A DNA stretch of 64,000 bases from Myxococcota bacterium. Lineage in GTDB: Bacteria > Myxococcota > B64-G9. The position numbers were made by a program, and so were the translations under genes. How positions within the stretch are numbered: the stretch's first letter is position 1; each line of letters starts with the position of its first letter. The stretch lies in contig JAKLGA010000003.1 in the NCBI GenBank assembly GCA_022710975.1, forward strand, positions 62,001 to 126,000. The letters run 5' to 3'. Below the pieces are notes generated by a model, which did no database searches, was not told the DNA's origin, and saw only the letters and a program-made list of their open reading frames with translations. Of this stretch, positions 42,440 through 58,999 are shown one piece after another.

Positions 42440-42503
42440 GAAGGTGCCAGGCTCTTTTTGACGCGCGTCATTTTTGCGTCAATTCAATGATTCCGGCGGG
42501 TTG
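42431..42503 (+). repeat. REP-like dispersed repeat, copy 4
   Basis: It contains CCTCCCTGA, AAGGTGCCAGGCTCTT, TTTTTGACGCGCGTCA, TTTGCGTCAATTC and a diverged tail. It separates two convergent genes, supplies the stop codon of the left gene and encodes the last residues and stop of the RelA-like gene on the other strand. Confidence 0.78.
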
Positions 42504-44089
42504 CTCTCCGCGTCGGCCTGGGGTTCCGCCGCGCCTCGGCCGACCAGGCGCCCGGCCAGCCGCGCCAGGCGCGTCCACGCCCGGCTCCACGGCCCGCCCG
42601 GCGGCGGCGTGGCCTCGGTCTGCGCCAGCTTGTACTGCCAGTGCGCGGCCCGGCCGAGCTCGGCCCGGCGGTGCATCTCGAAGGTGCGCACCTGAACCTC
42701 GATCGGTTGCCCATCCGCGGCCCGCACGCCCGTGTGCAGGCTCTGGTAGCCGTTGGCCTTCGGCTCGGCGATGTAGTCCTTGAAGCGCAGCGGCTCCGGC
42801 TGGAAGGCGGCGTGCACCGCGGCCAGCGCCCGGTAGCAGTCCCCGGTCGAGGGCACCAGCACCCGGAAGCCGAACACGTCCGGGATGCCCTCCAGGGGGA
42901 GGCCCGTGGACTGCATCTTGCGGTACACCCCGGCCGCGTGCTTGACCCGCCCGAGCACCTCGGCGCCCGCGACGCCCGCGAGCGCGCTCCGCAGGCGCTT
43001 CTCCTGCGCCGCCAGCCAGGCCTCCCGCCCCTCGCTGCGGGCGCTCAGGAACGCGCGCACCCGGCGGAACAGCTCGGGCTCGAGCACCCGCAGCGCGGCG
43101 TCGTCCAGGCGGGCGCGCAGCTCCATCTCGCCCAGCCGCTCGGCCTCGGCCACGTCCCGGGTCCAGATCTCGCCAGCCAGCCGGTGGGCCTCGAGGCTCC
43201 CGGGCTCGCTCGCCTCCAGGGCCTTCAGTCGCTCCTGCAGGAACCGGCGCACCAGCTCGCGCCGCAGGCCGTGCTCCGGCCCTGGCCCGGGTCGGGGCGC
43301 CTCGACGGGTGACGGGCTGGCGACCTCCGTCCCGCCCCGGCGCTCGGCCTCCATCAGCCGGCGGACCGTGTCCTCGAGCTCCCGGCCGAGGTCCTGCAGC
43401 TGGCTGGCCAGCGCGCGCCACTCCGGCGCCCGGCCGCCCTCGGCGATGCGCTCGAGCCCCCCGTAGTGCCCGCGGCCGGCCAGGCGCGCGGCCCGCAGCA
43501 GCCCGCGCAGGGGCCGGGTGACCAGGAAGTGCTCGGCCACCAGCAGCGAGGCCAGGATGCTGGCCACCACCAGGGCCAGGTTGACACCGAAGAAGCGCCA
43601 GCGGCGGGCGACCGCGGCGGCGAAACGGGCGTCGTCCTGCCAGGCCGCCAGCGTGCCGTTCCCGCCGACCAGCAATGGGCTGTAGACCGGCAGCTGGGTG
43701 TGCATACGCACGCGCGGGCGCTCGGCCTCGTACCAGGGCAAGCCCGGCCCGACCACCAGCCCGGCGCCGTCGCGCAGCTCGAGCTGCAGGTCGGTGAAGC
43801 CCTCCTGCAGGCTGGCCTGGCGGAAGTCGTCCAGCAGCGCGCGCACCTGGGCCCGATCGCGGGCCTCCTCCAGGTTGGTCACCAGCGGCTCCAGCAGGCC
43901 CTTGAGGAAGGCCTCGCGGTCCTCGAGCTCGCGGGCGATCTCCCAGCGCTGCTGCAGGTAGCTCACGCTGCCCAGCACGAGGGTCACCACCAGCGCGGTC
44001 CACAGGCTCATGCGCAGGCCGAGGCCGATCTGGTCGGCGAGCCGGGGCCGCGCGTCCGGGTCGTGGCGGGGTGGCATGCCGGGGATCAA
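42479..44089 (-). CDS. Membrane-anchored RelA/SpoT-type (p)ppGpp synthetase with extracytoplasmic sensor
   Basis: This is a 536-aa protein starting at TTG 44089, where TTGA overlaps the acyltransferase stop and GGAGGAGGG lies upstream; ATG 44077 is an alternative. Transmembrane helices at about 27-45 and 165-187 flank a roughly 120-residue extracytoplasmic sensor, then a HAMP-like linker and coiled coil (about 188-375). Residues about 375-505 are a RelA_SpoT synthetase domain: GRVKHAAGVYRKMQ, DVFGFRVLV, RFKDYIAEPKANGYQSLHT (Tyr448 stacks guanine in the family) and PIEVQVRTFEMH (catalytic Glu464). There is no HD hydrolase, TGS or ACT domain. It would make (p)ppGpp or a related pyrophosphorylated nucleotide in response to an envelope signal. 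It is the last gene of the polyene-like operon. Confidence 0.85.
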   Translation of the reverse strand: MIPGMPPRHDPDARPRLADQIGLGLRMSLWTALVVTLVLGSVSYLQQRWEIARELEDREAFLKGLLEPLVTNLEEARDRAQVRALLDDFRQASLQEGFTDLQLELRDGAGLVVGPGLPWYEAERPRVRMHTQLPVYSPLLVGGNGTLAAWQDDARFAAAVARRWRFFGVNLALVVASILASLLVAEHFLVTRPLRGLLRAARLAGRGHYGGLERIAEGGRAPEWRALASQLQDLGRELEDTVRRLMEAERRGGTEVASPSPVEAPRPGPGPEHGLRRELVRRFLQERLKALEASEPGSLEAHRLAGEIWTRDVAEAERLGEMELRARLDDAALRVLEPELFRRVRAFLSARSEGREAWLAAQEKRLRSALAGVAGAEVLGRVKHAAGVYRKMQSTGLPLEGIPDVFGFRVLVPSTGDCYRALAAVHAAFQPEPLRFKDYIAEPKANGYQSLHTGVRAADGQPIEVQVRTFEMHRRAELGRAAHWQYKLAQTEATPPPGGPWSRAWTRLARLAGRLVGRGAAEPQADAESNPPESLN

Positions 44090-45030
44090 CCGCCCTCCTC
44101 CGGAGCCCCTTCCCGGAGAGGAGGCTCTGCGCTGGGCTCGGGCCACGGCTCCCCCAGGAACGGCTCGAAGTGGAACCAGTGGCTGGGGTAGCGCCGGGCC
44201 ACCTCGGCCAGCCGGTCGGCGTACTCCTGGGCCGAGCGCTCCACGGCCGCCCAGCGATCGGCCCGCCCGTTGGCCACGATCCGCCGGGGCGGGAAGGCCA
44301 CCAGGTGGTAGCGCCCGCGCCCCAGCCGCAGGCCGAAGAAGGTCACCACGGGCACGCCGGCGGCCAAGGCGAACAGGTGCGGGCCCGCGGGCAGCCGCAC
44401 CCTGCGTCCGAGAAAGCGCACCTCGACCACGCGCTGCCCCAGACCCCACAGGCGATCGCCCGCCATGCTGACCAGCCCGCCCGCCCGCATGAAGCGCAGC
44501 CCCTCCAGCGTGCCGAGCGCCGCCCCGGTCCCGTCCGTGGCCCCCTCCTCCGCCACCACCAGCTCGAGCCCCTCGGCCGCCAGGGCGGCCTTCTGCTGGC
44601 GCTCGACCTGCTCCCGTTCGCGCGCGCCCATGAACAGCATGAGCCGGAGCGCCTTCTTGCGCAGCAGCAGCGCAGCCACCTCCCAGCTGCCCAGGTGCGA
44701 CATGAGCAGCACCGCGCCGCGCCCCGGGCCGGCGGACTCCAGGAGGTGCTGGAAGCCCTCCTCGCTGGACTCGGCCGGGTCGCCCCGCGCCAGCCGCAGG
44801 CGATCGGCGAACAGGCCGGCGAAGCGCTGGAACTGCCGCCAGGTGAGCCCCCAGGCGCGCAGCCGCCCCTGGCCGGGGAACAGGGCCCGGTAGAACCGCA
44901 GGCTCTCCCGGCGCCGGGCCGGCCGGAAGAGGAAGTAGCCGGCGGCCACCCACCAGGCGAAGAAGGCCACGATCCACGGGCCGAGGACGCGCGCGGCGGC
45001 CGTCAGCAGCCGGTAGATGGCCCCGCTCAC
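44086..45030 (-). CDS. LpxL/HtrB-type lysophospholipid acyltransferase
   Basis: This is a 314-aa membrane-associated acyltransferase with an N-terminal helix (about 18-36) and the HxxxxE catalytic motif in SHLGSWEVA near residue 113. Later blocks ATDGTGAALGTLEGLRFMRAGG and VTFFGLRLGRGRYHL also match the lipid A acyltransferase family. In aryl-polyene loci such an enzyme attaches the polyene acyl chain to a lipid or glycerol carrier at the inner membrane. GTG 45030 overlaps the upstream stop in GTGA and its own stop overlaps the RelA-like start in TTGA. Confidence 0.87.
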   Translation of the reverse strand: MSGAIYRLLTAAARVLGPWIVAFFAWWVAAGYFLFRPARRRESLRFYRALFPGQGRLRAWGLTWRQFQRFAGLFADRLRLARGDPAESSEEGFQHLLESAGPGRGAVLLMSHLGSWEVAALLLRKKALRLMLFMGAREREQVERQQKAALAAEGLELVVAEEGATDGTGAALGTLEGLRFMRAGGLVSMAGDRLWGLGQRVVEVRFLGRRVRLPAGPHLFALAAGVPVVTFFGLRLGRGRYHLVAFPPRRIVANGRADRWAAVERSAQEYADRLAEVARRYPSHWFHFEPFLGEPWPEPSAEPPLREGAPEEGG

Positions 45031-48000
45031 GCCGCACCGCCCCGGGGCGCTGCGGCCTCGGCCACGAACCAGGTCTCCTCACGACCCGGCGCGCTCCGCT
45101 CCTCGAGCGTCACCCGCAGCCCGGCCCGCTCGAGCGCCGCGCCGAGCTCGGCCGCAGAACGGAAGTGGGGCCGGCGCCGCCCGAGGCGGAGCCGCACCGT
45201 CTCCAGGGCCCGCTCCCAGGCGAAGCGGCCCTGGCCGGGCACGGTCACCCGCAGCACCACCCGCCCGCCCGGCGCGAGCCGCGCCTGCACCCCGGCCAGC
45301 GTCTCGTCCAGGGCCCCGTCCTCCAGGTGGTGGAGCATGTCCAGCAGCAGCACCGCGTCGTAGGGACCCGGGGCGGAAGACAGCCCGGGCGCGGCGGCGC
45401 ACACCACCTCGCCCCGCTCCCCGACCACCAGCCCCGCCACGCGCGCCCGCTCCGGATCGGGCTCCAGGCCCGTCAGCCGCAGCCCCGGCCGGCAGGCCAG
45501 CAGGAAGGCGGCCGGCACGCCCAGCCCGCAGCCCACGTCCAGCACCCGCCCGGCCGGCCCGACCAGCGCGTCCAGCCTGGCGAACAGCGGATCGAACGCC
45601 AGCTTGAAGCGGGCGAAGAAGCGCGGGTGGGGCTCGAGCCAGCGGTAGCGCGCGCGGACCAGCGCCAGGTGGGCGCGGCTGCCCGCCGGCAGCGCCTGGC
45701 CGGGGAAGGGCCGCCGCCGGAGCAGCCGGGCGAGCAGCGGCGGCAGCAGCACGAAGGTCCCCAGGAGCGCCCCGGCCATGCCCAGCGAGGTGGTGATGCC
45801 CGCGCTGCGCGGCACGGCGTGCTCCGAGGGCACCATCGACAGCATGCCCACCAGGGTCGAGCCGCCGGCCAGCAGCACCATGACCCGGATCGGCCCGAGC
45901 GACGGGTGGTGCTCGTCGAGCGCGCGCTGCGCGCCCTTCAGGTAGAAGACCGCGTAGTCCACCCCCACCCCCAGCACCACCGCGAGCAGCAAAAGCCCGG
46001 GGATGTCGAGCGGGCGGCCGAGCAGCCGCAGCGTCCCCAGCGTGGCGGCGAAGGTGAACAGCGTCGGCAGCAGGGCCACCAGGCAGAGCAGCCCGTCGGC
46101 CAGCACCAGGAGGACCAGCAGGCTGATGGCCGCGCCCATCAGCCACAGCATCTTCAGGTACGCCTCCCCGATGCGCGCGGACAGCCGGCGGGTGAACAGC
46201 CCGGCGTCGAACACGGCGGCGCCCCGGGCGATGAGCGCGCCGGCGAAGACCTCGGCCTGGTAGCCCGCGGCCGGCTGCGCCTGCCCGGCCCACACCCAGC
46301 CGCCCCCGGCGGCGCGCTCCACCCCCAGCAGCGGGGCCACCGCCGGGGACAGCGCGGGCGGCGCCGCCCCGTCCACGGGCGCCTCGAGGGCGGCCAGGAA
46401 GGGCGCGAAAGCGTCCGGGGCGAAGCCCAGCTCGGCCTCGGCCCCGGCCAGGGCCTCCGCCAGCGCGGCCCGCCGGGCCGGGGTGAAGAAGTCCCGCCAG
46501 GCCTGGCGCTGGGCGCGCGCGCGCGCCGTGCCCGGCAACAGCTCGCCCGGGGTCAGGCCGCCCCGCACCCGGCCCGCGGCGCGCTCCGCCGCCAGCCCCT
46601 CGGCCAGCCCGTCCGTCGCCGCCCGCAGCGCCTCCAGCTCGGGCGCCTCGGCCAGCAGGTGGACGCTCGCGCCCAGGTCGCCCCAGGCCGCCTTGACCCG
46701 GCCCTCGGCCGCGAGGGTCTCCGGCCGCACCGTGTTCATGGCCGCGAGGTTCGCGTCCACCCGGGGCAACCCGCCGAGCAGCAGCCCCGCCCCGGCGAGC
46801 AGCAGCAGGCCGAAGGCCAGGAAACCGCGGCCGGTGGTCGCGCGAGCGAGCCAGCGCTCGACCGGCAGGAGGCTCCCGCGACGCGCCGGCCCGAGCCGGG
46901 GGAACAGCAGCGGGAAGACCAGGTGCACGAACAGGAAGGAGAACAGGGCGCCCAGGGAGGCGAACAGGCCCATCTGGGCCAGCATCTCGAAGCCGCTGAG
47001 GCCGAGCGCCAGGAAGGCGCCCACGGTGGTCAGCATGGCCGACAGGCTGGGCGCCCACAGCTCCCGGGCCACGGCCCGGCCGGAGGTCTCGTGGTGACGG
47101 TCGAGGTGCAGCAGGAAGGCCACGCTGCAGTCGACGGTGATGGAGATGAGCGCCCCGCCGAAGCCCAGCGCCAGAGCCGAGATGGACGGCCGCAGGAAGG
47201 AGTAGGCGAGCAGCGCCAGCGAGGCGCCGGCCACCGAGGGCAGCAGGCCCAGCAGCCCGAGCAGCGGCCGCGGGAAGCACAGCAGCAGCAGCAGCGCGAT
47301 GCCCAGGGTCGCCAGGCCCACGCCGCGCTCGGTGTCGTGGCGCACGATGCGCTCGTTGTCCAGCGCCGCGCGGAAAGAGCCCACGGCGTCGAGCTCCACC
47401 GCCGGGCCCGGCCCCAGGGCCTCGGCCAGCTCGCCCGGCAGGCGCTCGAGCCGCTCGGCGATGCGCCGCGCCAGCTCGGTGTCGGACCCGCGGCCGGCCG
47501 GCTCGGCCAGCACCAGCGCGTGCCTCCCCTCGACGTCCAGCAGCGCGCCCCCCTGCAGCCGCGCCCCGGCCGCCGGGCGGGCCGCGGCCAGGCGGGCCAG
47601 CACCAGCTCCCGCAGCCGGAGCGGATCGCGTGCCAGGAGCTCGGCCTGGCCCAGCCCGGACAGCTCGGACAGCTCCTCCAGCGCGCCGCCCAGGGCCGCG
47701 CGCACCGCCTGCGGCTCGAGCCGCGGCGCCACCTCGGCCAGGAGCTCGGCCCGGTCGAACAGGGCGGGCAGGTTCCGCGAGACCTCGTCCAGCAGCTCCG
47801 GGTAGGCCCCGGCCGCCTGCCCGAGCCCCACCCGGGTGAAGAGCCCGCTCTGCCCCAGGCGCTCCTCGACCAGCCGGGCGGCCTGGACCAGCCGCGCGGG
47901 GGCGGCCGGGGCCGCGCCGGCCGCGAGGTGCAGATCGAGCACCACCCGGTCGAGGGCCGGGTGGCGATCCACCACCCGCGCGGCCGCCTCGAGCACGGGA

Positions 48001-48137
48001 TCCTCGCCCGGCAGCGAGCGGGACAGATCCGTGTCCACCCGCAGGCGCCCGAGCCCCGCCCAGAAGGCGGCCGGCACGGCCACCGCCACCGCCAGGGCCA
48101 CCAGCGCCCGGCGCAGGCCCTCGCCCCGCGGCCTCAT
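45027..48137 (-). CDS. MMPL/RND exporter fused to a SAM-dependent methyltransferase
   Basis: This is a 1036-aa protein. Residues 1-800 are an MMPL-type RND exporter: a first helix, a large periplasmic loop, a cluster of six helices (LATLGIALLLLLCFPRPLL onward) with GGALISITVDCSVAFLLHL, then a second loop and a second helix cluster with GVGVDYAVFYLKGAQ. Residues about 830-1036 are a class I methyltransferase with motif I VLDVGCGLGVPAAFL (about 865-880), acidic LEPDP and LLLDMLHHLEDG. Exporter and methyltransferase are separate neighbours in known aryl-polyene loci; here they share one chain with no stop or frameshift between. Likely moves the finished or lipid-bound product across the inner membrane. 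ATG 48137 overlaps GT2's stop (ATGA). Confidence 0.88.
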   Translation of the reverse strand: MRPRGEGLRRALVALAVAVAVPAAFWAGLGRLRVDTDLSRSLPGEDPVLEAAARVVDRHPALDRVVLDLHLAAGAAPAAPARLVQAARLVEERLGQSGLFTRVGLGQAAGAYPELLDEVSRNLPALFDRAELLAEVAPRLEPQAVRAALGGALEELSELSGLGQAELLARDPLRLRELVLARLAAARPAAGARLQGGALLDVEGRHALVLAEPAGRGSDTELARRIAERLERLPGELAEALGPGPAVELDAVGSFRAALDNERIVRHDTERGVGLATLGIALLLLLCFPRPLLGLLGLLPSVAGASLALLAYSFLRPSISALALGFGGALISITVDCSVAFLLHLDRHHETSGRAVARELWAPSLSAMLTTVGAFLALGLSGFEMLAQMGLFASLGALFSFLFVHLVFPLLFPRLGPARRGSLLPVERWLARATTGRGFLAFGLLLLAGAGLLLGGLPRVDANLAAMNTVRPETLAAEGRVKAAWGDLGASVHLLAEAPELEALRAATDGLAEGLAAERAAGRVRGGLTPGELLPGTARARAQRQAWRDFFTPARRAALAEALAGAEAELGFAPDAFAPFLAALEAPVDGAAPPALSPAVAPLLGVERAAGGGWVWAGQAQPAAGYQAEVFAGALIARGAAVFDAGLFTRRLSARIGEAYLKMLWLMGAAISLLVLLVLADGLLCLVALLPTLFTFAATLGTLRLLGRPLDIPGLLLLAVVLGVGVDYAVFYLKGAQRALDEHHPSLGPIRVMVLLAGGSTLVGMLSMVPSEHAVPRSAGITTSLGMAGALLGTFVLLPPLLARLLRRRPFPGQALPAGSRAHLALVRARYRWLEPHPRFFARFKLAFDPLFARLDALVGPAGRVLDVGCGLGVPAAFLLACRPGLRLTGLEPDPERARVAGLVVGERGEVVCAAAPGLSSAPGPYDAVLLLDMLHHLEDGALDETLAGVQARLAPGGRVVLRVTVPGQGRFAWERALETVRLRLGRRRPHFRSAAELGAALERAGLRVTLEERSAPGREETWFVAEAAAPRGGAA

Positions 48138-48901
48138 CCGTCCCCCGCAGGGCGCGCCGCCGGGGGGGGCGCGGGCAGCCAGCGGGCGCGCCGCGCGCGC
48201 GGCACGAACAGGCGGGTGAAGATGAGGCGCATGAAGGTGCCCGCGTTGCGCCAGAAGTCGGTCCAGGGGCGGAAGTGGGACACGCGCCCGCCGGGCGGGG
48301 AGTACACCACGCCCACCTCGTGCTCCTCCACGGGCAGGCCCTTCCAGCGGGCCAGGACCACGATCTCCACCTCCCACTGGAAGCGCCGGGCGCGGGAGCC
48401 GAGCCGCAGGACCTCGGGCAGCGGGTACAGGCGGTAGCCACTCTGGGTGTCCGCGAGCGGCGGCCCGCCCGAGGCCCACACCCAGAAGTTGGAGAACTTG
48501 CGCCCGAAGCGGCTGGTCCAGGGGACGCTCTCGCCGGTCATGCCGCGCCGGCGGCCCACCAGGATCCGGCGCGGGCCCGCGGCCGCGGCCCGCATCAACC
48601 CCGCCGCGTCGGCCGGATCGTGCTGCCCGTCGGCGTCCAGGCACACGGCGTAGTCGGCCACGCCGACGGCCGCCGCCAGGCCGGTCCGCAGGGCCGCGCC
48701 CTTGCCGAGGTTGCGCGCGTGCCTGAGCACCGTCACGCCCGCCAGGGAGTCCACCACCGCGCGGGACTCGGCGCCCGAGCCGTCGTCCACCACGAACACG
48801 GGCAGCCCGTAGGCGCGCGCACCCGCCACCACGCCGGGCAGGCTGCGCGGGTGGTCGAACACCGGGATGACGAAGGCGAAGCGGGGGGCGGCGGCGGCCA
48901 T
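48134..48901 (-). CDS. Family 2 glycosyltransferase
   Basis: This is a 255-aa GT-A fold enzyme: FAFVIPVFDHPRSL opening, VVDDGSGAES nucleotide site, ARNLGKGAALRTGL, the DxD motif in CLDADGQHDP, DTQSGYRLYP and the RFQWEVEIVVLARW acceptor helix. These features place it with dolichyl-phosphate-mannose-synthase-like GT2 enzymes encoded in aryl-polyene clusters. There is no membrane anchor beyond a possible C-terminal amphipathic helix. ATG 48901 follows GGGGGGAGGAG. It is followed by the MMPL fusion with ATGA overlap. Confidence 0.88.
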   Translation of the reverse strand: MAAAAPRFAFVIPVFDHPRSLPGVVAGARAYGLPVFVVDDGSGAESRAVVDSLAGVTVLRHARNLGKGAALRTGLAAAVGVADYAVCLDADGQHDPADAAGLMRAAAAGPRRILVGRRRGMTGESVPWTSRFGRKFSNFWVWASGGPPLADTQSGYRLYPLPEVLRLGSRARRFQWEVEIVVLARWKGLPVEEHEVGVVYSPPGGRVSHFRPWTDFWRNAGTFMRLIFTRLFVPRARRARWLPAPPPAARPAGDG

Positions 48902-48915
48902 CGGCTCCTCCCCCC

Positions 48916-50649
48916 TCAGCGGGTCGGGCGCGCCCGCAGGGGCAGCCAGGCCACGCCCCAGGTGCCCGGGCCGGTGTGCGAGCCGGTGGTGAGCGACAGG
49001 GGCTGCGGGAACAGCTCGCAGCCGGGCAGCGCCGCGCGGAGCTCCGGGAGGAGCTCACCCTCCACCCAGGCCTGGTTGTCGGTGTACTCGACCATGATCC
49101 ACAGCGGCCCGTCGGCCTGGGCCGCGGCCAGGAGCCGCTCCCGGGCGAAGCGCCGCTGATCCTCGCGCGCGCGCAGCACGGCCAGCTTGCGCGCGCCGTC
49201 GGGCCGCGGGCTGACCACCGGCTTCATGTGCAGCAGGTCGCCGAAGAAGGCCGAGGTGCGCCCCAGCCGCCCACCGGCGGCCAGGAACTTGAGCTGGTCG
49301 AGGAACAGGAGCTCCTCGGCCTTGTCCACGGCCCAGCGCGCGTGCTCCTCCACCGACTCGGGGGAGTCGCCGGCCGCCGCCCGCCGGCCGGTGGACAGCA
49401 CGGCCAGCCCCAGCCGGCCCGAGGCCGAGCCCGAGTCGAGCACGCGCATGCGGCCCTCGGGGTCCGCCTCGCGCCGCCAGTCGCGGGCCACCTGGAAGTT
49501 GCCGGTGAACACCGAGCCCACACACACGTACAGCACCCGCGGGTGCAGCCCGAGCGCCTTCTGGTAGCACAGGTGGCGCTCGCGCAGGGAGGCCTGGGAG
49601 GTGCTCACCCGCTCCCCGCGGCGCATGGCGGCGTACAGCTCCTCCTGGCGCACGTGCGTCTCGGGCAGCGCCCGCCGGCCGAGCAGCACGTAGGAGTCGA
49701 GCAGGCCCAGCCCCAGCGCGCGGGCGTCCGCCCGGGTGACCGAGCCGGCCGCGTCGCACAGGACGTGCACGCGCGGGCCGGCGGCCGCGGGCCGCGCGAA
49801 GCCGTCGGCCTGGACCGACATGTCGTCGCTGTCGAAGTGCACGAGCGCCCCCAGGCCGGCCAGGCGCGCCCGGGTGGCCTCGCGGTCGTCGGTGTGCAGG
49901 TGCAGCTTGAGGTAGCCGCCCTGGGAGATGGCCACCACCGACTCGCCCAGCTCCCCGGCCCGCGCGGCCAGCCCGTCCGCGTCGTCGGCCCGGAGCACCG
50001 CGTCCACGCAGAAGCCGGCCTCGCGCTCGCCGGCGAAGCCCTCCGACAGCCGCAGCCCCTCGTGGAAACGCGCGGTCACCGGGCGGCCACCCTCGGCCCG
50101 GCCCGCCAGCGCGTGGAAGAAGCCGTCGAAGAAGATGAACATGCCCAGCGCGCCCGCGTCGACCACGCCGGCCGCGCGCAGCTTGGGCAGGGTCTCGCGC
50201 GTCGCGCGCACCGCCGCCTCCAGCCGATCGAGGACCGGCCCCAGCAGCGCCTCGTCCTCCGCGGCCGGGGCGGCCGCCAGCGCCTCGTCCAGCGCGTCGA
50301 ACAGGCTGAGCATGGTCCCCGCGCGGGGCTCTGCCACCGCCTGCCAGGCCAGCGCGCGCCCGCGCCGGGCCGCGGCCCCGAGCTCGCCGCGCCCGAGGGA
50401 GTCCTCCAGCCAGCCGGAGAAGAAGCGCGCGGCGATGTTGCCCGAGTTGCCCCGCGCGGACATCAGCAAGTCCTCGCGCAGCGCCGGGGTGGCCGCGTCG
50501 AGCCGCCGGAGCGGCAGCAGGCTGATCAGCAGATTCCGGCCGGTGTCCCCGTCGGCCACGGGGAACACGTTGATCTCGTCCAGGAGATCCGCCCAGGCGG
50601 CCAGGCGTTCGCTGCCGGCCGCCAGGGCCGCGCGCACCTCGGCGTGCAT
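48916..50649 (-). CDS. Fatty acid kinase fusion: FakA (DhaL-type kinase) plus DegV/FakB
   Basis: This is a 577-aa protein. Residues 1-190 are a DhaL (DAK2) kinase domain with the metal and ATP motifs NVFPVADGDTGRN and SARGNSGN. Residues about 195-275 match the middle domain of FakA (AISQGGYLKLHLHTDD). Residues about 290-577 are a DegV/FakB fatty-acid-binding domain with VSTSQAS, LGRTSAFFGDLLHMKPVV and the GSHTGPGTWG end. In Firmicutes FakA phosphorylates fatty acids bound to separate FakB; here both share a chain, so it probably makes acyl-phosphates. ATG 50649 has GGGAGGG seven bases upstream. It sits between the lyase and the glycosyltransferase, 17 and 14 bp away. Confidence 0.88.
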   Translation of the reverse strand: MHAEVRAALAAGSERLAAWADLLDEINVFPVADGDTGRNLLISLLPLRRLDAATPALREDLLMSARGNSGNIAARFFSGWLEDSLGRGELGAAARRGRALAWQAVAEPRAGTMLSLFDALDEALAAAPAAEDEALLGPVLDRLEAAVRATRETLPKLRAAGVVDAGALGMFIFFDGFFHALAGRAEGGRPVTARFHEGLRLSEGFAGEREAGFCVDAVLRADDADGLAARAGELGESVVAISQGGYLKLHLHTDDREATRARLAGLGALVHFDSDDMSVQADGFARPAAAGPRVHVLCDAAGSVTRADARALGLGLLDSYVLLGRRALPETHVRQEELYAAMRRGERVSTSQASLRERHLCYQKALGLHPRVLYVCVGSVFTGNFQVARDWRREADPEGRMRVLDSGSASGRLGLAVLSTGRRAAAGDSPESVEEHARWAVDKAEELLFLDQLKFLAAGGRLGRTSAFFGDLLHMKPVVSPRPDGARKLAVLRAREDQRRFARERLLAAAQADGPLWIMVEYTDNQAWVEGELLPELRAALPGCELFPQPLSLTTGSHTGPGTWGVAWLPLRARPTR

Positions 50650-50666
50650 GCGCTCACCCTCCCCCG

Positions 50667-52220
50667 TCAGCCGGCCTCGACTCCGGTGCGCACATCGCCC
50701 GCCAGGATGTCCGCGGCCAGCCGCGCGAGCTCCGCGTCCAGGGGGCGATCGGCCGTCAGGGCCGGCGAGCGCAGGCGCACGGCCGCCAGCGCCTCGGCCA
50801 GGCGCGGCCGGGCCGCGAGCCCACCGCGCAGCTCGGCCGCCTGGCACGCGCCGAGCAGCTGGCAGGCCGCCACCCCGGCCGCCAGGCGGGCGACGCCGAG
50901 CGCGTCCCGGGCGGCGATCGTGCCCATGCTGACCTTGTCCTGGTTGTGGGACTCGGTGGAACGCGAGAAGGAGGCGGCCGGCATGGTCCCGCGCAGCGCC
51001 TCGGCGGTCAGCGCCGAGGCGGTGATCTGCACCGCCTTCAGCCCGTGGTGGGCCGGGCCGACCTCCCTGGGCACCAGGTTGGCCGGCAGGCCGCGGCTGA
51101 AGCGCGCGTCGACCAGCAGCGCGAGCTGGCGATCGGCCAGATCCGCGGCCGAGGCCAGGGCGGCCTTGAGCGCATCCATGGCGAAGGCCACGTGCCCGCC
51201 GTAGAAGTTGCCGCCGGTCAGCACCTCGCCGCTGTCCGGATCGAGCAGCGGGTTGTCGCTCACCCCGTTGGCCTCCACCTCGATCCAGGCGTGCACCCAG
51301 GCGAGGGCGTCGGCCAGGACGCCCAGCACGTGCGGGCTGCAGCGGCAGGAGTAGGGATCCTGCAGGCTCTCGGGCCGGTTGCTCTCCTCGACCGGGCCGC
51401 GCGCCTCGAGCAGCGCCCGGAGCCGGGCGGCCACCTCGGCCTGGCCCGGGTGGGGCTTGGCCGCGAACAGGCCCGGGTGGAAGTGGCGGGCGTGGCCGGC
51501 CAGCGCGTGCACCGCCAGCGCGGTGCCGGCGGTGAAGGCCTGGAGCAGCGCCTCCGCCTGCCGCACGGCCAGCACGGCCAGGCCGGTCATGACCGAGGTG
51601 CCGTTGACCAGCGCCAGCGGCTCCTTGGGCTGCAGCCGGTAGGGCGCCAGCCCCTCCGCCGCCAGGGCCTCGGCCGCGGGCACCCGCCGCCCCCGGTGGA
51701 AGGCCTCGCGCTCGCCCTGCAGGCAGGCGGCCAGGTAGGACAGCGGGGTGAGATCGCCCGAGGCGCCCACCGAGCCCTGGCAGGGGATGACCGGGGTGAT
51801 CCCGTGGTTGAGCAGCGCCACCAGCGCGTCCAGCAGCTCGCCGCTCACCCCCGAGAACCCCCGGGCCAGGCTGAGCAGCCGGCACAGCACCACCGCGCGG
51901 GCCTCCTCCACTCCCAGCGGCTCGCCCAGGCCCGCCCCGTGGTAGCGCACCAGGTTCTGCCCCAGGGCCTCGGTCCGCTCGGCGTCGAGCTGGTTACCGC
52001 AGGACTGGCCGTAACCGGTGGTCACCCCGTAGACCGGCTCGCCCCGGGCGATGGCCGCCTGGAGGGTGGCCCGGGAGCGCTCCAGGCGCGCGCGGAAGGC
52101 CGGGGCCGCGCTCAACTCCACCCGCGCTCCGCGCCGCGCCACGTCGTCGATTTGTCGAACGGAAACAGGCCCGTCGCCCACGGTGAGCGCCGGCGGGGGG
52201 GTTGGCTTGGGCAGGACCAC
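50667..52220 (-). CDS. MIO-type aromatic amino acid ammonia-lyase (HAL/TAL family)
   Basis: This is a 517-aa protein of normal family length. The MIO prosthetic group forms from Ala153-Ser154-Gly155 in GSVGASGDLTPLSY. The catalytic Tyr region reads PVYGVTTGYG; the substrate-selectivity pair is Tyr93-His94 in LVRYHGAG; QDPYSCRCSPHV and NPLLDP are also conserved. It deaminates His, Tyr or Phe to the acrylate. In flexirubin and related loci, the tyrosine-specific form supplies 4-coumarate as starter; the linkage here favours that role but specificity cannot be read with certainty. GTG 52220 follows GGAGGTGGAG. Confidence 0.88.
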   Translation of the reverse strand: MVLPKPTPPPALTVGDGPVSVRQIDDVARRGARVELSAAPAFRARLERSRATLQAAIARGEPVYGVTTGYGQSCGNQLDAERTEALGQNLVRYHGAGLGEPLGVEEARAVVLCRLLSLARGFSGVSGELLDALVALLNHGITPVIPCQGSVGASGDLTPLSYLAACLQGEREAFHRGRRVPAAEALAAEGLAPYRLQPKEPLALVNGTSVMTGLAVLAVRQAEALLQAFTAGTALAVHALAGHARHFHPGLFAAKPHPGQAEVAARLRALLEARGPVEESNRPESLQDPYSCRCSPHVLGVLADALAWVHAWIEVEANGVSDNPLLDPDSGEVLTGGNFYGGHVAFAMDALKAALASAADLADRQLALLVDARFSRGLPANLVPREVGPAHHGLKAVQITASALTAEALRGTMPAASFSRSTESHNQDKVSMGTIAARDALGVARLAAGVAACQLLGACQAAELRGGLAARPRLAEALAAVRLRSPALTADRPLDAELARLAADILAGDVRTGVEAG

Positions 52221-52306
52221 GGCTCCACCTCCAAGGTGGCGATCCTGTCCACCGGGGGGGGAGAAGTCAAGCGGAGCGGTGCGCGCGGGCGGGAGGGCGA
52301 CCGGGC

Positions 52307-53500
52307 TCAGGCGCTCGCGCTGGGCGGGCGCAGAGCCTCCACCCCGCTGAGCAGCAGGCTGACCAGATCGCCCTGGCGGCTGGTCTGGGTCTTGGCGAAC
52401 ACCCGCTTGAGGTGGGTGCGGGCCGTGTTGGTGGTCACCCCGAGCCGCTTGGCGGACTCCTCCAGGCTCAGCCCGGAGACCAGCAGGGAGGCCAGCCGGG
52501 ACTCCGCCCGGGTCAGGCCGTAGAGCTGCTGCAGGGCCTCCTCGGTGGCGGCCGGGCGGTGGTCCGGATCGCGCACGAACACGGCCGCGAGCACGCGCGG
52601 ATCCTCGAGGGCCTGGCGCTCCAGGCGCAGCGGCGTCACCAGCAGGGCCAGGGCGCGGCCGCCGGAGCTGCTGGTCACGTTCAGCGTCCCGCCGCAGCCC
52701 GTGGCCGAGGCCCCGCAGCGGGAGGCCTCCGCGATCAGCCGGCCGAGCTCGGCCTGGGCCTCGGCCTCGGCCGCGCGCAGCAGGCCGTCCGCCCCGAGCT
52801 GCAGCCCTTCGTGCCGCCCGAGCAGCTCGGTCGCCGAGCGGTTGACCGCGATGGCCTTGCCCAGGGCGTCCACCAGGATCACCCCGATGGGCAGGTGATC
52901 GATGGAGTTCTCCAACGCCACCGACAGGTTCAGGGCCCCGGCCAGCAGGCGGTACAGCTCCATGGCCCGACGCAGGTGCGGGGCCAGGGCCTGGAACAGG
53001 GCCACGTCCTCGTCGTCGTAGTCGCCGGCCGCCGGGCTGCGGACCATGGTCAGGTTGAGCACCCAGGAGCCGCGCACCTCGAACACCATGTTCATGAAGT
53101 CGTAGAAGCCGCGCGGGGCCAGGAACTCGCGGTAGAAGGCGGAGGCCTCGAAGTCCGGAGCGGCCACCACCATGCGCCGGGTGACCACGACCCCTTCGGT
53201 CACGAAGCGATCGCGGTTCGAGTTGACCAGCGTGCGGGCCGAGGGGTGCAGCCGGGCGTAGTCGATCTGGACGTCGGCGTGCATGGGCGAGCCGAACACG
53301 ACCTCGCCTTCGCCCGAGTCGTAGTTCGCCCGGCGCACCACGGCGCCCTCGCTCCGGGTCAACGCCCGCAGCTTCTCCAGCACGGGACCCCAGTTGGCGG
53401 TGCCCTCGGCCACCGTGTAGAGGGCCTGGATCAGCTCGAGCACCTGAGCTTGCGAGTACCTGGCCACGCCGGACACCTCAGCCCCCACCATGGGCTCCAT
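52307..53500 (-). CDS. LuxR-family transcriptional regulator, likely cluster regulator
   Basis: This is a 397-aa protein whose last 65 residues are a LuxR helix-turn-helix (LTRAESRLASLLVSGLSLEESAKRLGVTTNTARTHLKRVF). The N-terminal 200 residues are GAF-like (LIQALYTVAEGTANWGPVLEKL, DDEDVALFQALAPHL), with a PAS-like segment (about 200-265, NSIDHLPIGVILVDALG). This is the layout of the TIGR-type LuxR regulators without autoinducer domain. ATG 53500 is preferred; 53491 and 53536 are possible, as no start has a clear ribosome site. It is embedded among the biosynthetic genes, in the same direction. Confidence 0.82.
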   Translation of the reverse strand: MEPMVGAEVSGVARYSQAQVLELIQALYTVAEGTANWGPVLEKLRALTRSEGAVVRRANYDSGEGEVVFGSPMHADVQIDYARLHPSARTLVNSNRDRFVTEGVVVTRRMVVAAPDFEASAFYREFLAPRGFYDFMNMVFEVRGSWVLNLTMVRSPAAGDYDDEDVALFQALAPHLRRAMELYRLLAGALNLSVALENSIDHLPIGVILVDALGKAIAVNRSATELLGRHEGLQLGADGLLRAAEAEAQAELGRLIAEASRCGASATGCGGTLNVTSSSGGRALALLVTPLRLERQALEDPRVLAAVFVRDPDHRPAATEEALQQLYGLTRAESRLASLLVSGLSLEESAKRLGVTTNTARTHLKRVFAKTQTSRQGDLVSLLLSGVEALRPPSASA

Positions 53501-53564
53501 TCCAAGCGGACGGAAAAAGTCACCCCCATGAAACACGAATCGGGGGCGGAGTTCAAGTGCGGAA

Positions 53565-55085
53565 TCACACGCCCGGTCCGCGGCCTCCGGCGGAGCCCGG
53601 CGGGCCGGGTTTGCGCGCCACCAGCTCCAGCATCAGCCCGCCGAAGCCGGGCAGCCCGGGGACCCTCAACCCGAAGGCGTCGAGCCGCTCGAGCTCCAGG
53701 CCGGCGGCCCGCGCCGCGCGGCCGAGCTGGCCCCGGCCCCGGGCGTGCAGCCACACCCCCTGGCGCATGGCGTTGCCGAGCTGGGTGAACAGGCGAGGCA
53801 GCGAGCGCTGGGCCGTGGTCAGGTGCAGCCGGCCGCCCGGGCCGAGCAGCCCGGCCAGGCGGGCCAGGGCGGCCTGGAGATCAGGCAGGTACTCGAGCGC
53901 CGAGTAGGCCGCGACCAGATCGAAGGGGCCCGCGAGCTCCGCGCCGTGGAGGCCGGCGCACAGGGTGGTGAGGCGGCCCGCGCCCGCCGCGCGGGCCTTC
54001 GCCTCGAGCTCGGCCAGCATGGCGGGCGACGGATCCAGCGCCACCACCTCGCGCGCCCGGCGCAGGAGCTCCAGGGTGAAGCGGCCGGTGCCCGCGCCCA
54101 CCTCGAGCACCCGCGCCTGGCCCGTGGGCAGCAGCCCCGGCAGGCGGGCGAGCACCGCCGCCCGCTCGGCGCGGCGCAGCCCCCGCTGCCCGCGGGCCGC
54201 CTGCTCGGCGTCGTAGCTCGGGGCCAGCGCGTCGTAGAAGCGCCGCACCGGGCCCGCGCCCGCGGCGGCCAGCGGCTCGTGCACCGGCCGGCCCAGCACC
54301 TCGGACAGCGCGGCCACCCGCAACCCGCGCGCCGCCAGGCCGTCGAGCAGCCGCTCCACCTCCGCCAGCCAGAGCTCCAGCCCGCGCCCACCGGGCGGCG
54401 CCCGGTCGTGCAGCGCCAGCACGTCGCCCGGCCGCACCCCGGCCAGCAGCCTGGCGGAGAGCCCCCGCAGCCGGCGGTTGCCGAAGTCGAGCGCCCGCCG
54501 GCTGGCGACCGCGCAGGCGAGGTCGGCCTCGAGCAGCACGCGCCACAGGCGCGGATTGACCACCCAGGCCGGCGGCCGGAAGAGCGCCGGGCGCACCCCC
54601 AGGGGCGCGAGCGCCGCCTGGCAGCCCTGGAGGGAGCGGCCGAGGCGCGCCCGGCCGCGCAGCATGAGCAGGGGGTCGTGCTCGTCGCTGTGGTTGCCGA
54701 GCTCGTGCCCGCCGTCCAGCAGGGCGCGCGCGAGCGCGGGGTGGGCCCGCACCCGCGCGCCCACCACGAAGAAGGCCGCCCGCGCCCCGCGCCGGGCGAG
54801 CAGCTCGAGCAGCCGCGGCGTGGTGAGCGGATCGGGGCCGTCGTCGAAGGTGAGCGCCACCGCGTCCGGGCTGTGCCCGCGGTCCAGGACCGGCAGCAGC
54901 AGCCGCCAGCGGGGGAAGAAGGGCGCCAGGCCGGAGAGCAGCAGCAGCAGCCCCAGCGGCAGGGCCGCCGTCCAGGCCGGCGCCAGCCACCCGAGCAGGG
55001 CCGCGGCCTGGAGCAGCCCCAGGCCGAGCAGGTCGAGCGGCGCGAGCGGGCACAGGCGCGGCCCGTCCCCCCGCGCCGGGCTCAC
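53565..55085 (-). CDS. NodB polysaccharide deacetylase fused to SAM methyltransferase
   Basis: This is a 506-aa protein with two N-terminal hydrophobic stretches (about 7-55). A NodB domain follows, with ALTFDDGPD near residue 80, the metal-binding GHELGNHSDEHD near 132, and RPPAWVVNP. A class I methyltransferase occupies residues about 270-500 (VLEVGAGTGRFTLELL, VALDPSPAMLAEL, FDLVAAYSALEYLPDLQ). GTG 55085 gives a GTGA overlap with the radical-SAM gene; ATG 55103 would overlap by 22 bp. Such a deacetylase could act on a sugar attached to the product. The combination in one chain is unusual. Confidence 0.83.
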   Translation of the reverse strand: MSPARGDGPRLCPLAPLDLLGLGLLQAAALLGWLAPAWTAALPLGLLLLLSGLAPFFPRWRLLLPVLDRGHSPDAVALTFDDGPDPLTTPRLLELLARRGARAAFFVVGARVRAHPALARALLDGGHELGNHSDEHDPLLMLRGRARLGRSLQGCQAALAPLGVRPALFRPPAWVVNPRLWRVLLEADLACAVASRRALDFGNRRLRGLSARLLAGVRPGDVLALHDRAPPGGRGLELWLAEVERLLDGLAARGLRVAALSEVLGRPVHEPLAAAGAGPVRRFYDALAPSYDAEQAARGQRGLRRAERAAVLARLPGLLPTGQARVLEVGAGTGRFTLELLRRAREVVALDPSPAMLAELEAKARAAGAGRLTTLCAGLHGAELAGPFDLVAAYSALEYLPDLQAALARLAGLLGPGGRLHLTTAQRSLPRLFTQLGNAMRQGVWLHARGRGQLGRAARAAGLELERLDAFGLRVPGLPGFGGLMLELVARKPGPPGSAGGRGPGV

Positions 55086-56455
55086 AGGAGCAGCTTGTCC
55101 CATTGCGGCCCCACCCGACCGCGGCGGTGCATGCGCGCCAGCATGGTCTGGAAACGCTCGCCGCCCGAGCCGACCACCCAGTGGAGGCGGCCCGCGGCCC
55201 GAGCCTGGACGCGGGCGATGATGTCCGCGCTCGGCGGGCCGGCGCGGTAGTAGGTCGGCTCGAGCAGCTCGTCCTCGGGCCGGATCTGCCCCTCCTGTTG
55301 GGCCAGGCGCCACAGGCCGGTGCCGGGGTAGATGCGCACGCCGCAGAAGAAGAACATCGCCGCCCGCTCGAGCTGCTCGGCCGCCTCCAGCGCCGCCCCG
55401 AGGGTGGCCTCGGTCTCCCCGGGGCCGCCCAGCATGAAGTAGTGGGCCACGGGTAGTCCCGCCGCGCGGGCCGCGCGGTGGGCGGCGAACACGTCCGCCG
55501 CCCGGAAGCTCTTGTGGTAGCGGGCCAGCACCGCGTCGCTCAGGTGATCGGTGCCGAACTCGACGTGCGCCAGGCCGCAGGCCCGCAGGTGCGCGTAGAA
55601 CCCGTCCGGGGGGGCCAGGGGCGCGAAGAAGGCGCCCCAGGGCAGGCTCAGCCCGGCCGCGCGCATGGCCTCGGCCACCGCCAGGCTGTGGGCCGGGTCG
55701 GCGTTGAACACCGAGTCTGCCAGGAACAGGTAGCGCGCCCCGGCGTCCTGCAGGGCCCGGGCGGCGCGGCCGACCTCCTCGGGCGGGAAGGCGCGCAGCC
55801 GGCCGCCCTCGATCAGCGGGTAGGTGCAGTAGGCGCAGTGGAAGGGGCAGCCGCGCTGGGTCTGGAGGTTCAGCATGCCGCCCCGCGCGAGGTACGGCCC
55901 GCACTCCTCGGGCGTCCGCGGCAGGCGGCGGGGGTGACCCCCGGCCCAGGGCGGCGGCCGGTGGAAGGGGCGCCCGGGCAGCACCACCCCGGGCAGGGCG
56001 GCCAGCGCGTCCGCGCCCGCGCCTGCCTCCAGGGCCTGCAGCACGGCGCCGAAGCGCTCCCCCTCGCCGGCCAGCCCCAGGTCGGCCGCGCCGAGCGCGA
56101 GCAGCCGCTCGGGGAAGAGCGTGTAGCCAGCCCCGCCCAGCACCACCCACGGCCCGCCCGCCTCGCGCGGGCCGGCGGCCGCGCGCACGGCGGCGACCGC
56201 GCGCCGGCAGTCGTCGACGAACGAGCGCGCCGCGCTCACGTCGGTGTTGTCCACGTTGCGCAGCGACAGCCCGACCACCTGCGGGTCGAAGCCGCGCACG
56301 GCCGCGCCCAGGCCGTCCTCCCCGGGCTGCTCCAGGAGGTCCAGCAGGCGCACCTCGTGGCGAGGGTCGAGCGCGCCGGCCACGTGGTCCAGGCCGAGCG
56401 GGTAGACCGGGAAGGGCTCGGCCAGCCGGTTCAGCGAGGCCAGCAGGACCCGCAT
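55082..56455 (-). CDS. B12-binding-domain radical SAM enzyme
   Basis: This is a 457-aa protein: an N-terminal cobalamin-binding-like Rossmann domain (about 1-140, ending LVLGGAGYTLFPERLL-like) followed by a radical SAM barrel with the cluster motif CPFHCAYC near residue 203 (CxxxCxxC) and the GGE-like segment LGGPGETEATL. The canonical DxHxxG cobalamin ligand is not obvious. Members commonly methylate unreactive carbons or rearrange lipids; related proteins are encoded beside fatty-acid-synthase genes in lipid clusters such as those for ladderanes. Likely tailors the polyketide or lipid chain. ATG 56455 is 10 bp after the KS-CLF stop. Confidence 0.85.
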   Translation of the reverse strand: MRVLLASLNRLAEPFPVYPLGLDHVAGALDPRHEVRLLDLLEQPGEDGLGAAVRGFDPQVVGLSLRNVDNTDVSAARSFVDDCRRAVAAVRAAAGPREAGGPWVVLGGAGYTLFPERLLALGAADLGLAGEGERFGAVLQALEAGAGADALAALPGVVLPGRPFHRPPPWAGGHPRRLPRTPEECGPYLARGGMLNLQTQRGCPFHCAYCTYPLIEGGRLRAFPPEEVGRAARALQDAGARYLFLADSVFNADPAHSLAVAEAMRAAGLSLPWGAFFAPLAPPDGFYAHLRACGLAHVEFGTDHLSDAVLARYHKSFRAADVFAAHRAARAAGLPVAHYFMLGGPGETEATLGAALEAAEQLERAAMFFFCGVRIYPGTGLWRLAQQEGQIRPEDELLEPTYYRAGPPSADIIARVQARAAGRLHWVVGSGGERFQTMLARMHRRGRVGPQWDKLLL

Positions 56456-56465
56456 GGCCGCCCCC

Positions 56466-58730
56466 TCATGGGCTGAAGTCCACCGCGGTCAGGTGGGCGC
56501 CCAGCCCCACCAGCAGCACCCCGCGGCCGCCGAGGGCGACCGGGCCGCGGCCCGCGCCGAGCCCCGCCGGCAGCTCGCCCCCGGCCACCAGCCGGGCGGC
56601 CAGCACGGCCGCGACCGCGCTCGCGGAGGCGAATTCGCCCAGCAGCGGGCGCACATCGACCACCGGCCCGGGGAAGGCCGCCGCCTGGACGAACGCGCGC
56701 CAGCGCTCGCCGCCCTGGCGGTGGCCCGCCGGCAGATCGACCAGCAGCGCGCCGTAACGCTCGCCGAGCGCCGCGGGGCCGCCCAGCTCCGCGACCAGGG
56801 CGGCCAGCCCGGCCGCCACGTCCTCGGGCCGCTCGGGCGCGAGCCGGCAGGCCCGCAGGCGGACGCTCGGGCCCGCCTGGCCCGGGGCGCAATCGGCCTC
56901 CGGGCGCAGCCACAGCGCGCCGCCGCCGTCGGCCGGTTCGCCCCCGCAGGGGTCGAACAGCGGGCTCAGCACCGGGTGGTGCTCGTCTGCGCCCAGCACC
57001 AGGAGCTCCCGGGCGCGCGGGGTCTCGCGCTCCTCGACGTCCAGCGCCAGGAGCTCGGCCATCAGCAGGGCCGCCTCGAAGGAGCTGTCCCCCACGCTGG
57101 CGGTCAGGTTGGCCCCGCGCGCGCCGAGCCGCATGGCGAGCTGCCCGGCCGGGGCGTTGTGCACCGAGCCGACGAAGTCGATCGGGCTGGCCAGCCGCTG
57201 CGGATCGGAGAACAGCTCGTGCAGGAAGTCGTGCGTCTCCGACAGCGGGCCGAAGCCGGTGCCGAAGAAGATCCGCCTGGGCCCGGCCTCCGCGTCGGGG
57301 CACAGCGCCTGGCCGAGCGCGAGCACGAGGCGCGGCAGGCGCTTCTGGCGCCGGCAGACGCGCGGCGGCAGCTCGCGCACCACGTCCGCGTCGGGCAGCA
57401 GGCCGGCGCAGCGCTGCCCGCCCGCGAAGCGCTCCCAGGTCTCCCGGGTGTGCCCGGCGCCGGTCAGGCAGGCGCTGCCCACCACCCGCAGGCAGGCCGT
57501 GGGCCCGGGCGGGGCCTTCAGCCGGCCGCCGGGCCCGCTCAGGTGGACCGCCTGGCCGGCCGTGTTGCGCACCGCCCCGAGCACCAGGGCCGCGTTGTTG
57601 CCGCCGAAGCCGAAGGAGTTGGACATCACCGCGTGCAGCTCGGCCCGGCGCGGCTCGCGGAGCGGCGTGAGGCCCAGCTCGGGATCCGGCTCCGTGAGCC
57701 CGACGTTGGCGGGCAGCAGATCGCGGGTGAGCGCCGCCAGGCACACCACCGCCTCGACCGCCCCGGCGGCCGCCAGGGGGTGGCCGAACACGCCCTTGGT
57801 CGAGGACACGGGCGGCAGCCGGTCGTCGAACAGGTCGCGCACCGCCAGGGCCTCGGCCGCGTCGTTGTCGCGGGTGCCGGTGCCGTGCAGGTTCACGTAG
57901 TCGATGCGCCGCGGGCCGAGCCCGGCGTCGGACAGCGCGGCCTGCATGGCCAGGAACGCCCCGAGCCCCTCGGGGTGCGGGGCGGTCGGGTGGTGCGCGT
58001 CGCAGGACAGGCCGCCGCCCAGCAGCTCGGCGATCACCCCCGGGTGGGGCGTCTCGGCCGCGTGCAGCAGCAGCATGGCGGCGCCCTCGGACACGCTCAT
58101 GCCAGCCCGCTCGCGGTCGAGCGGCCGGGTACCGCGCGGATCGACCAGCTTCAGCAGGCTGAAGCCGAAGTAGGTCAGGCGGCAGAGCGCGTCGGCGCCG
58201 CCCGCCAGCACCCGCTGGCAGCGCCCCGCGCGGATCAGCTCGAGCGCCACCTTGAGGGCCACGCCGGCCGAGGAGCAGGCCGTCGAGACCGTGAGCGCGG
58301 GCCCGCGGCAGCCCACGGCCCGCGCCACCCGCTCGGCCACCGTGCCGCTGCCGTGCAGCCGGTAGCGCTGCGGGTCCTTCACCCCGGCCAGCAGCAGCTC
58401 CTCGGACAGCGGCATGCCGCCCGTGGTCACCCCGAGCACGACCGCGTCCGGCGGCAGCTCCGCCCCGGCCATGGCCTGCTCGGCGGCGGCCAGCGCCAGG
58501 CGGTGGGTGCGAGGCCAGTCGGCGGGTCCGGGCAGGGGCAGCTCCCGGGGCACCTGCCCGGCCGGGCGGGGCCCGCCCACGCCGGGCTCGAACAGCCACA
58601 GCGGCTCGAGCGGGCGGTGCTCCACGCTGCTCTCGAGCAGCGCGCGCACCTGGGCGTCGAGGCCCACGCCCGCCGGGGTGACCACGCCCAGGCCGGTGAT
58701 GAAGGCCCGGATGGAGGGGCCGCGGCTCAA
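56466..58730 (-). CDS. Fused ketosynthase and chain-length factor (KS-CLF)
   Basis: This is a 754-aa protein of two thiolase folds. Residues 1-395 are an active-looking FabF-type ketosynthase with the complete triad: Cys152 in STACSSAG, His282 in HGTGTRDND and His317 in FGHPLAAAG. Residues about 410-754 resemble the truncated chain-length-factor family of aryl-polyene synthases; the nucleophile position reads VGDSSFEA with Asp548 in place of Cys, so it cannot condense. In E. coli the equivalent pair ApeO-ApeC is a heterodimer of separate chains. TTG 58730 overlaps the ACP stop in TTGA. Confidence 0.87.
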   Translation of the reverse strand: MSRGPSIRAFITGLGVVTPAGVGLDAQVRALLESSVEHRPLEPLWLFEPGVGGPRPAGQVPRELPLPGPADWPRTHRLALAAAEQAMAGAELPPDAVVLGVTTGGMPLSEELLLAGVKDPQRYRLHGSGTVAERVARAVGCRGPALTVSTACSSAGVALKVALELIRAGRCQRVLAGGADALCRLTYFGFSLLKLVDPRGTRPLDRERAGMSVSEGAAMLLLHAAETPHPGVIAELLGGGLSCDAHHPTAPHPEGLGAFLAMQAALSDAGLGPRRIDYVNLHGTGTRDNDAAEALAVRDLFDDRLPPVSSTKGVFGHPLAAAGAVEAVVCLAALTRDLLPANVGLTEPDPELGLTPLREPRRAELHAVMSNSFGFGGNNAALVLGAVRNTAGQAVHLSGPGGRLKAPPGPTACLRVVGSACLTGAGHTRETWERFAGGQRCAGLLPDADVVRELPPRVCRRQKRLPRLVLALGQALCPDAEAGPRRIFFGTGFGPLSETHDFLHELFSDPQRLASPIDFVGSVHNAPAGQLAMRLGARGANLTASVGDSSFEAALLMAELLALDVEERETPRARELLVLGADEHHPVLSPLFDPCGGEPADGGGALWLRPEADCAPGQAGPSVRLRACRLAPERPEDVAAGLAALVAELGGPAALGERYGALLVDLPAGHRQGGERWRAFVQAAAFPGPVVDVRPLLGEFASASAVAAVLAARLVAGGELPAGLGAGRGPVALGGRGVLLVGLGAHLTAVDFSP

Positions 58731-58999
58731 CCCGGGGCCCCCGACGACCTGCGGTTCTCGGCGATGTAGTCGGCCAGGGAGGCGACCGAGGTCATCACCC
58801 TGCGGCCGAGCTCCTTGTTGTCGATGCGGATTCCGTAGTCCTTCTCGAGCATGACCACCAGCTCGAGCACGTCGATGGAGTCGAGCCCCAGCCCCTCGCC
58901 GAACAGGGGAGCGTCGTCCGGGATGCTGTCCGGATCCACGTCCCGGAGGTCCAGCGTCTCCACGATCCTGCGCTTCAGTTCCGCTCGCAGCTCGTCCAT
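58727..58999 (-). CDS. Acyl carrier protein
   Basis: This is a 90-aa, four-helix acidic protein with the phosphopantetheine site at Ser41 in LGLDSIDVLELVV. It opens MDELRAELKRRIVETL. Size and motif are typical for a type II ACP. It carries the growing chain between KS-CLF, ketoreductase and dehydratase. It is the first gene of the minus-strand operon, with TTGA coupling to KS-CLF. No second ACP is seen in the window, while many aryl-polyene loci have two. Confidence 0.92.
   Translation of the reverse strand: MDELRAELKRRIVETLDLRDVDPDSIPDDAPLFGEGLGLDSIDVLELVVMLEKDYGIRIDNKELGRRVMTSVASLADYIAENRRSSGAPG

Follow-up and report, generated by a model that had tools for sequence, protein, structure and literature searches.

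The window, a 64,000-nucleotide stretch of a Myxococcota contig (JAKLGA010000003.1, positions 62,001 to 126,000), encodes a protein, here called TM-RSH, that carries a RelA/SpoT-type synthetase behind a receptor-like membrane input half. From its sequence and predicted structure we consider it probable, at about two chances in three, that TM-RSH is a membrane receptor enzyme making (p)ppGpp in the cytosol. The reading frame is uninterrupted over 536 codons (42479-44089, minus strand; Table 1). Its TTG start overlaps the TGA stop of an acyltransferase gene at 44086-44088, the TTGA overlap described by an earlier note on this DNA, and an ATG at 44077, 12 nucleotides downstream of the TTG, is an equally good start. 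No Rfam RNA element was found within positions 36000-60000 of the window, and a promoter and terminator scan near the gene gave no match.

Table 1. Coordinates of TM-RSH, its parts and the neighbouring operon in the window.
Feature	Positions	Strand	Basis or remark
TM-RSH, whole gene (membrane receptor-like RelA/SpoT synthetase)	42479..44089	-	536 codons from TTG; alternative ATG 44077
Transmembrane helix 1, ~residues 21-44, N-terminus inside	43958..44029	-	Hydropathy; AF2 helix from residue 14
Extracytoplasmic domain, residues 45-165, two helices followed by three strands	43595..43957	-	AF2; VIA-align Z 7.0-9.2
Transmembrane helix 2, ~residues 166-188	43526..43594	-	Hydropathy
HAMP-like segment, residues 189-247, pattern RPLR...G...GAWEMRWLA.RF..L	43349..43525	-	Family alignment; profile match
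Variable Pro/Gly/Ala/Ser-rich linker, residues 251-279	43253..43339	-	Length comparison; AF2 pLDDT
Helices equivalent to long-Rel central bundle, residues 280-370, motif RLG..LK.RLEDAA.R.LEP	42980..43252	-	Sequence and structure match
RelA_SpoT synthetase domain, residues 371-489	42623..42979	-	Pfam, NCBIfam, PDB, structure alignment, conservation
Short C-terminal tail, residues 490-536, basic amphipathic stretch	42482..42622	-	Translation; Pfam
Aryl-polyene-like operon (neighbour, not part of the system)	44086..58999	-	Upstream of TM-RSH

The output half is of the long-Rel type by both sequence and model, not that of a small alarmone synthetase (SAS) or a toxic one (toxSAS). RelA_SpoT is the sole Pfam match in TM-RSH (residues 380-489, E=1e-34, 119.6 bits against a cut-off of 27), and it also matches all seven aligned family sequences (set A2). 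The NCBIfam model TIGR00691 (spoT_relA) matches at 8.6e-56 and the SAS model YjbM at 6.1e-7, while PDB sequences of long RSHs match at 1e-37 and those of SAS at 5e-5. The full-length AlphaFold2 model has a mean pLDDT of 71, with values mostly of 80-90 in the synthetase. Its residues ~271-481 align to residues 136-350 of S. aureus Rel with Z 18.5, whereas SAS, CapRel and an exported SAS align to the model with Z 8-11 (SAS 8.6-11.4). The structural match begins at about Rel residue 128-140, where the hydrolase domain ends. Pfam finds no HD hydrolase domain in TM-RSH, whose residues 1-270 are taken up by membrane helices, sensor, HAMP-like segment and linker, and no TGS, helical, ZFD or ACT domain after the synthetase, the protein ending ~50 residues later. 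By these sequence and model comparisons TM-RSH retains the central helical bundle of Rel together with its synthetase, and lacks the HD domain and the ribosome-sensing C-terminal half. In several members, though not in the L024 group, part of the tail that follows the synthetase is basic and amphipathic (net charge up to +10) and may perhaps bind the membrane surface.

At 435-438 TM-RSH has RFKD, as found in bifunctional Rel, where RelA has EFDD. The motifs claimed from the sequence at first reading (RFKDYIAEPK, Tyr448, Glu464) lie intact at those residues, and the remaining catalytic residues are present too: R381, K383, K391, D404, R409, K444, H452, Q466 and R468. Among them are the R/K of RxKH, the Mg2+ Asp, the acceptor Tyr and the Glu/Gln/Arg of ExQxR. 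In every alignment row covering the region R381, K383, K391, D404, R409, R435, D438, K444, Y448, H452, E464, Q466 and R468 are invariant, and the sole exception among the catalytic positions examined is a change of K437 to R in one member (L033). As we read the motifs, these positions appear to correspond to residues lining the donor and acceptor sites in FaRel2 (R64, K66, K74, D90, R95, Y128, E145 and Q147; PMC11782079). The Rel-type sequence also suggests that the product would be (p)ppGpp.

Hydropathy gives exactly two hydrophobic helices and no third, as the earlier note had proposed for the region around its extracytoplasmic loop, and the same two, with no other, in every family member containing that region. 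With two membrane helices and no more, N-terminus and synthetase are predicted to face one side of the membrane, although the charge bias around the helices is weak. Modelled alone with ten sequences, the input half reaches a mean pLDDT of 79 and runs from a long helix with TM1 through a second helix, three strands and a long helix with TM2 to HAMP-like helices. The ~120-residue extracytoplasmic domain is predicted to be a folded alpha/beta domain (pLDDT 82-95 except for one loop). In structure the input half comes closest to the N-terminal half of WalK, a histidine kinase (Z 9.2 with 4.3 A over 197 residues; Foldseek 7e-5). Sensor domains of McpU, CusS and CitA follow at Z 7-8 (CusS 7.8, with 3.0 A over 106 residues; CitA 7.0), on a par with unrelated ribosomal chains, and several unrelated chains score 7 to 7.7. 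Z values of this size are too low for helical matches to be relied upon. The model hints, weakly, at a likeness to the PDC/Cache-like sensors of CusS, WalK and CitA.

The HAMP-like linker named at first reading has some support from position and pattern: the family profile aligns in register with TM2 and HAMP of Tsr at E=0.012 and with the NarQ HAMP at E=0.13, and no other part of the input half is as well conserved as this segment. On the other side, the Pfam HAMP model matches neither TM-RSH nor the family sequences, which leaves the assignment weakly supported. We read the input half as a PDC/Cache-type receptor module in reduced form whose HAMP has diverged, a reading in which the position of the parts is convincing and the individual scores are not.

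In histidine kinases HAMP is usually continuous with the output helix. In every measurable TM-RSH member the HAMP helix is instead followed by a Pro/Gly/Ala/Ser-rich linker of 29-43 residues that varies in length and sequence, with pLDDT under 50 over most of its length in the AlphaFold2 model, and simple continuous-helix kinase signalling is therefore not expected. The earlier description of the protein as a histidine kinase with its output swapped is thus right as a parts list, in that a sensor input with a synthetase output is conserved across the family, and probably wrong for the mechanics, since the linker is variable and Rel's own bundle is retained. With so flexible a linker, HAMP and synthetase are unlikely to be tightly coupled in mechanical terms; control by dimer proximity or by a released inhibitory contact would be expected rather than a rigid helix.

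The architecture recurs outside the window. When 84,980 species genomes were scanned with eight-residue peptide patterns from residues 280-510, a method that misses divergent members, six loci were found, all in acidobacterial metagenome-assembled genomes (MAGs) and 49-52% identical. All five full-length loci have the same order from TM1 to synthetase; the sixth (L025) is truncated by a contig edge and begins at TM2. Profile searches found relatives in 5/396 sampled Acidobacteriota genomes, in 12/149 genomes of the acidobacterial class of the first match and in 1/41 of another class. The search for like architectures that the earlier note had called for thus brought the total to 13 acidobacterial relatives, all from MAGs, with an identical architecture in every one complete enough to judge. 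Because the whole arrangement is found again at 38-45% identity in independent genomes, it is not a product of chance. Profile scores split cleanly: no member falls below 484 bits and no ordinary Rel exceeds 206 bits. Across the family the mean pairwise identity falls from 0.63 for the synthetase and 0.61 for the HAMP-like segment, through 0.47 for the pre-synthetase helices and 0.40 for the extracytoplasmic domain, to 0.29 for the linker.

In a tree of the synthetase region with 35 long RSHs (33 from both phyla plus E. coli RelA and SpoT), the TM-RSH family forms one clade (100/100), with the window member branching within its unresolved base. The window's genome also encodes a full-length Rel of 725 residues with HD motifs intact by eye; it is ~41% identical to TM-RSH over the shared part and groups with the Rel of the host's family. 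Likewise, all six acidobacterial genomes tested have a second, Rel-type match. One acidobacterial protein in the tree (L040, from G396), a long RSH resembling RelA, has EFDDYI and an HD motif that appears to be degraded, and it groups with E. coli RelA (99/96). TM-RSH itself is the only member among 195 genomes of the window's own phylum, which is best explained by transfer or wide loss. Contamination of the contig was considered as its source and rejected: the contig also encodes a response regulator that shares 64-70% identity with its best matches in four members of the host's family and at most 52% with acidobacterial genomes. Scans of viral contigs, one with the host's ordinary Rel as query, gave no confirmed relative, and phage and plasmid records held no place covering at least 80% of the query, the matches examined there looking like ordinary RSHs.

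Upstream of TM-RSH lies an operon with genes for an ACP, ketosynthases, a B12-radical SAM protein, an aromatic amino-acid lyase, a Dak2-DegV protein, a GT2, an MMPL-methyltransferase and a lipid A-type acyltransferase. Within it, the reading frame at 45027-48137 (minus strand) appears to fuse an MMPL-type exporter to a C-terminal methyltransferase and has near full-length matches in four family relatives. The protein at 48916-about 50700 (minus strand) joins Dak2 (FakA-like) and DegV (FakB-like) domains, which suggests a fused fatty acid kinase supplying a polyene or lipid pathway. The palindrome (T)TTGACGCGCGTCA(A) occurs at three places in the window (26303-26318, 32088-32103 and 42457-42470) where chance predicts none; the copy at 42457 sits where two convergent genes end 39 bp apart, at 42439 and 42479, and the exact 14-mer has six sites in the whole genome against none for the control. 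It is possibly a dispersed repeat or a two-way terminator.

The earlier note had suggested that TM-RSH could serve this operon, and a regulator supplying (p)ppGpp locally to the adjacent aryl-polyene-like pathway would fit both the overlap with the acyltransferase gene and a similar codon composition. Comparison does not support that suggestion. Four members of the host's family (G002, G003, G006 and G007) have orthologues of parts of the operon and none has the TM-RSH gene; in G006, G003 and G002, where downstream sequence exists, other genes follow the acyltransferase. In G003 the following gene is a partial homologue of 38396-39505, which in the window lies beyond TM-RSH. Because the relatives' operons continue with other genes, TM-RSH seems to have been inserted where the operon ends. 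The neighbours of the acidobacterial members also differ, varying by genome among dapA-like, Kdp, Ser/Thr kinase and type VI secretion (T6SS) genes (one or few loci each, named by eye). We therefore rejected a polyene-pathway role as the general function of TM-RSH and hold this reading very improbable. Two loci (L024, L026) lie near VgrG/DUF2169-like T6SS genes and in L029 the gene overlaps that of a Ser/Thr kinase, observations made by eye and not family-wide. No neighbour is common to the ten loci inspected, and the neighbourhoods give no hint of the signal.

Three other readings concern the enzyme itself. Membrane helices and HAMP might only anchor and dimerise a constitutive synthetase that feeds a local or basal (p)ppGpp pool and senses no ligand; the flexible, variable linker would suit such a tether, as would an extracytoplasmic identity (0.40) below that of HAMP-like segment and synthetase. 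We nonetheless think it rather unlikely, given the confidently predicted alpha/beta fold outside the membrane and a HAMP-like segment strongly kept across phyla that a mere anchor would not need. A membrane-bound toxSAS-like pyrophosphokinase, released on phage attack or envelope damage and modifying adenosine nucleotides or tRNA CCA ends, would be in keeping with the sparse distribution of the family and with a match of the synthetase part to the PADLOC phage-defence candidate PDC-S33 (4e-13), and in toxSAS the same catalytic residues do serve ATP or tRNA acceptors (PMC11782079). Yet the synthetase is long-Rel-like in sequence and predicted structure, down to its RFKD motif, and toxSAS are small and come with dedicated antitoxins or immunity proteins (PMC11782079), whereas TM-RSH has no constant antitoxin-like partner gene across the ten loci inspected, and Pfam finds no fused antitoxin-like domain in it or its relatives. 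Toxic relatives acting on ATP or tRNA, raised at first reading, thus become less likely, and we regard this identity for TM-RSH as decidedly doubtful. That the synthetase has decayed and its domain now only senses nucleotides is hardly credible, with catalytic residues kept over 12-14 sequences while linker and tail drift.

The receptor-enzyme reading, which we prefer, would work as follows. The extracytoplasmic PDC/Cache-like domain would sense a cue from the envelope or from outside, TM2 and a dimer of the HAMP-like segment would relay the change inward, and the cytosolic synthetase would move pyrophosphate from ATP onto GDP or GTP. Across the flexible linker, control could act through dimer proximity or release of an inhibitory contact, and the separate long Rel of the host would remove the (p)ppGpp. 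Such a protein would have arisen from a long bifunctional Rel in which a sensor replaced the N-terminal hydrolase at the edge of the central bundle and the C-terminal half was lost, membrane control taking the place of control by ribosome and hydrolase. As far as the accessible text of one study describes them, the hydrolase and synthetase of Rel work in opposed HD-on and SYNTH-on states (PMC13376610); we infer that, with the bundle placed between them, a new N-terminal input there could use the same route. It is a tentative proposal, somewhat short of an even chance, that these proteins are one-component stringent-response receptors in which an outside ligand directly switches the cytosolic synthetase, without ribosome or histidine kinase, through a sensor at the site of the Rel hydrolase and the same allosteric route in the central bundle.

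The known triggers of (p)ppGpp synthesis are starved ribosomes acting on long RSHs, proteins that bind long RSHs, and transcription of SAS genes. If the receptor reading is true, sensor and synthetase in one polypeptide would link the envelope directly to the stringent response, and some bacteria may trigger the (p)ppGpp alarm directly from outside the cell. TM-RSH would also offer a natural experiment on how the hydrolase controls the Rel synthetase, since another input stands in its place at that joint. With few and diverse members, the family lends itself to quick testing of activity and ligand.

We rate TM-RSH as a new architecture within the known RSH superfamily. In the literature searched, a scope outside which most subscription journals fall, we found no description of an RSH of the membrane receptor type, and a classification into 30 RSH subgroups recognises, in its accessible text, only long RSHs, SAS and SAH (PMC3153485). 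With the long RSHs (Rel, RelA and SpoT) TM-RSH shares the synthetase, the central helical bundle and the RFKD of bifunctional Rel, but it lacks the hydrolase and the TGS/helical/ZFD/ACT half, has a two-helix, HAMP-like input and forms the separate clade (100/100). Like the SAS (RelP, RelQ/YjbM and RelV), it has a synthetase of the same fold (Z 8.6-11.4) without hydrolase; SAS are described, in the same accessible text, as a SYNTH domain only (PMC3153485), whereas TM-RSH is far closer to long Rel and adds a ~250-residue membrane input half and a Rel-type central bundle. The pyrophosphokinase fold and catalytic residues are common to toxSAS, CapRel, Tas1 and the exported alarmone synthetases (PMC11782079; PMC12691689), from which TM-RSH differs in having no constant antitoxin or immunity neighbour, no secretion domain and two membrane helices that would return the enzyme to the cytosol. 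With WalK, CusS, CitA, NarQ, Tsr and the HAMP-GGDEF receptor cyclases it shares an input of membrane helix, small extracytoplasmic alpha/beta domain, membrane helix and HAMP-like segment; in place of their DHp/HATPase, GGDEF or MCP domains, it carries an alarmone synthetase as its output, joined through a flexible linker.
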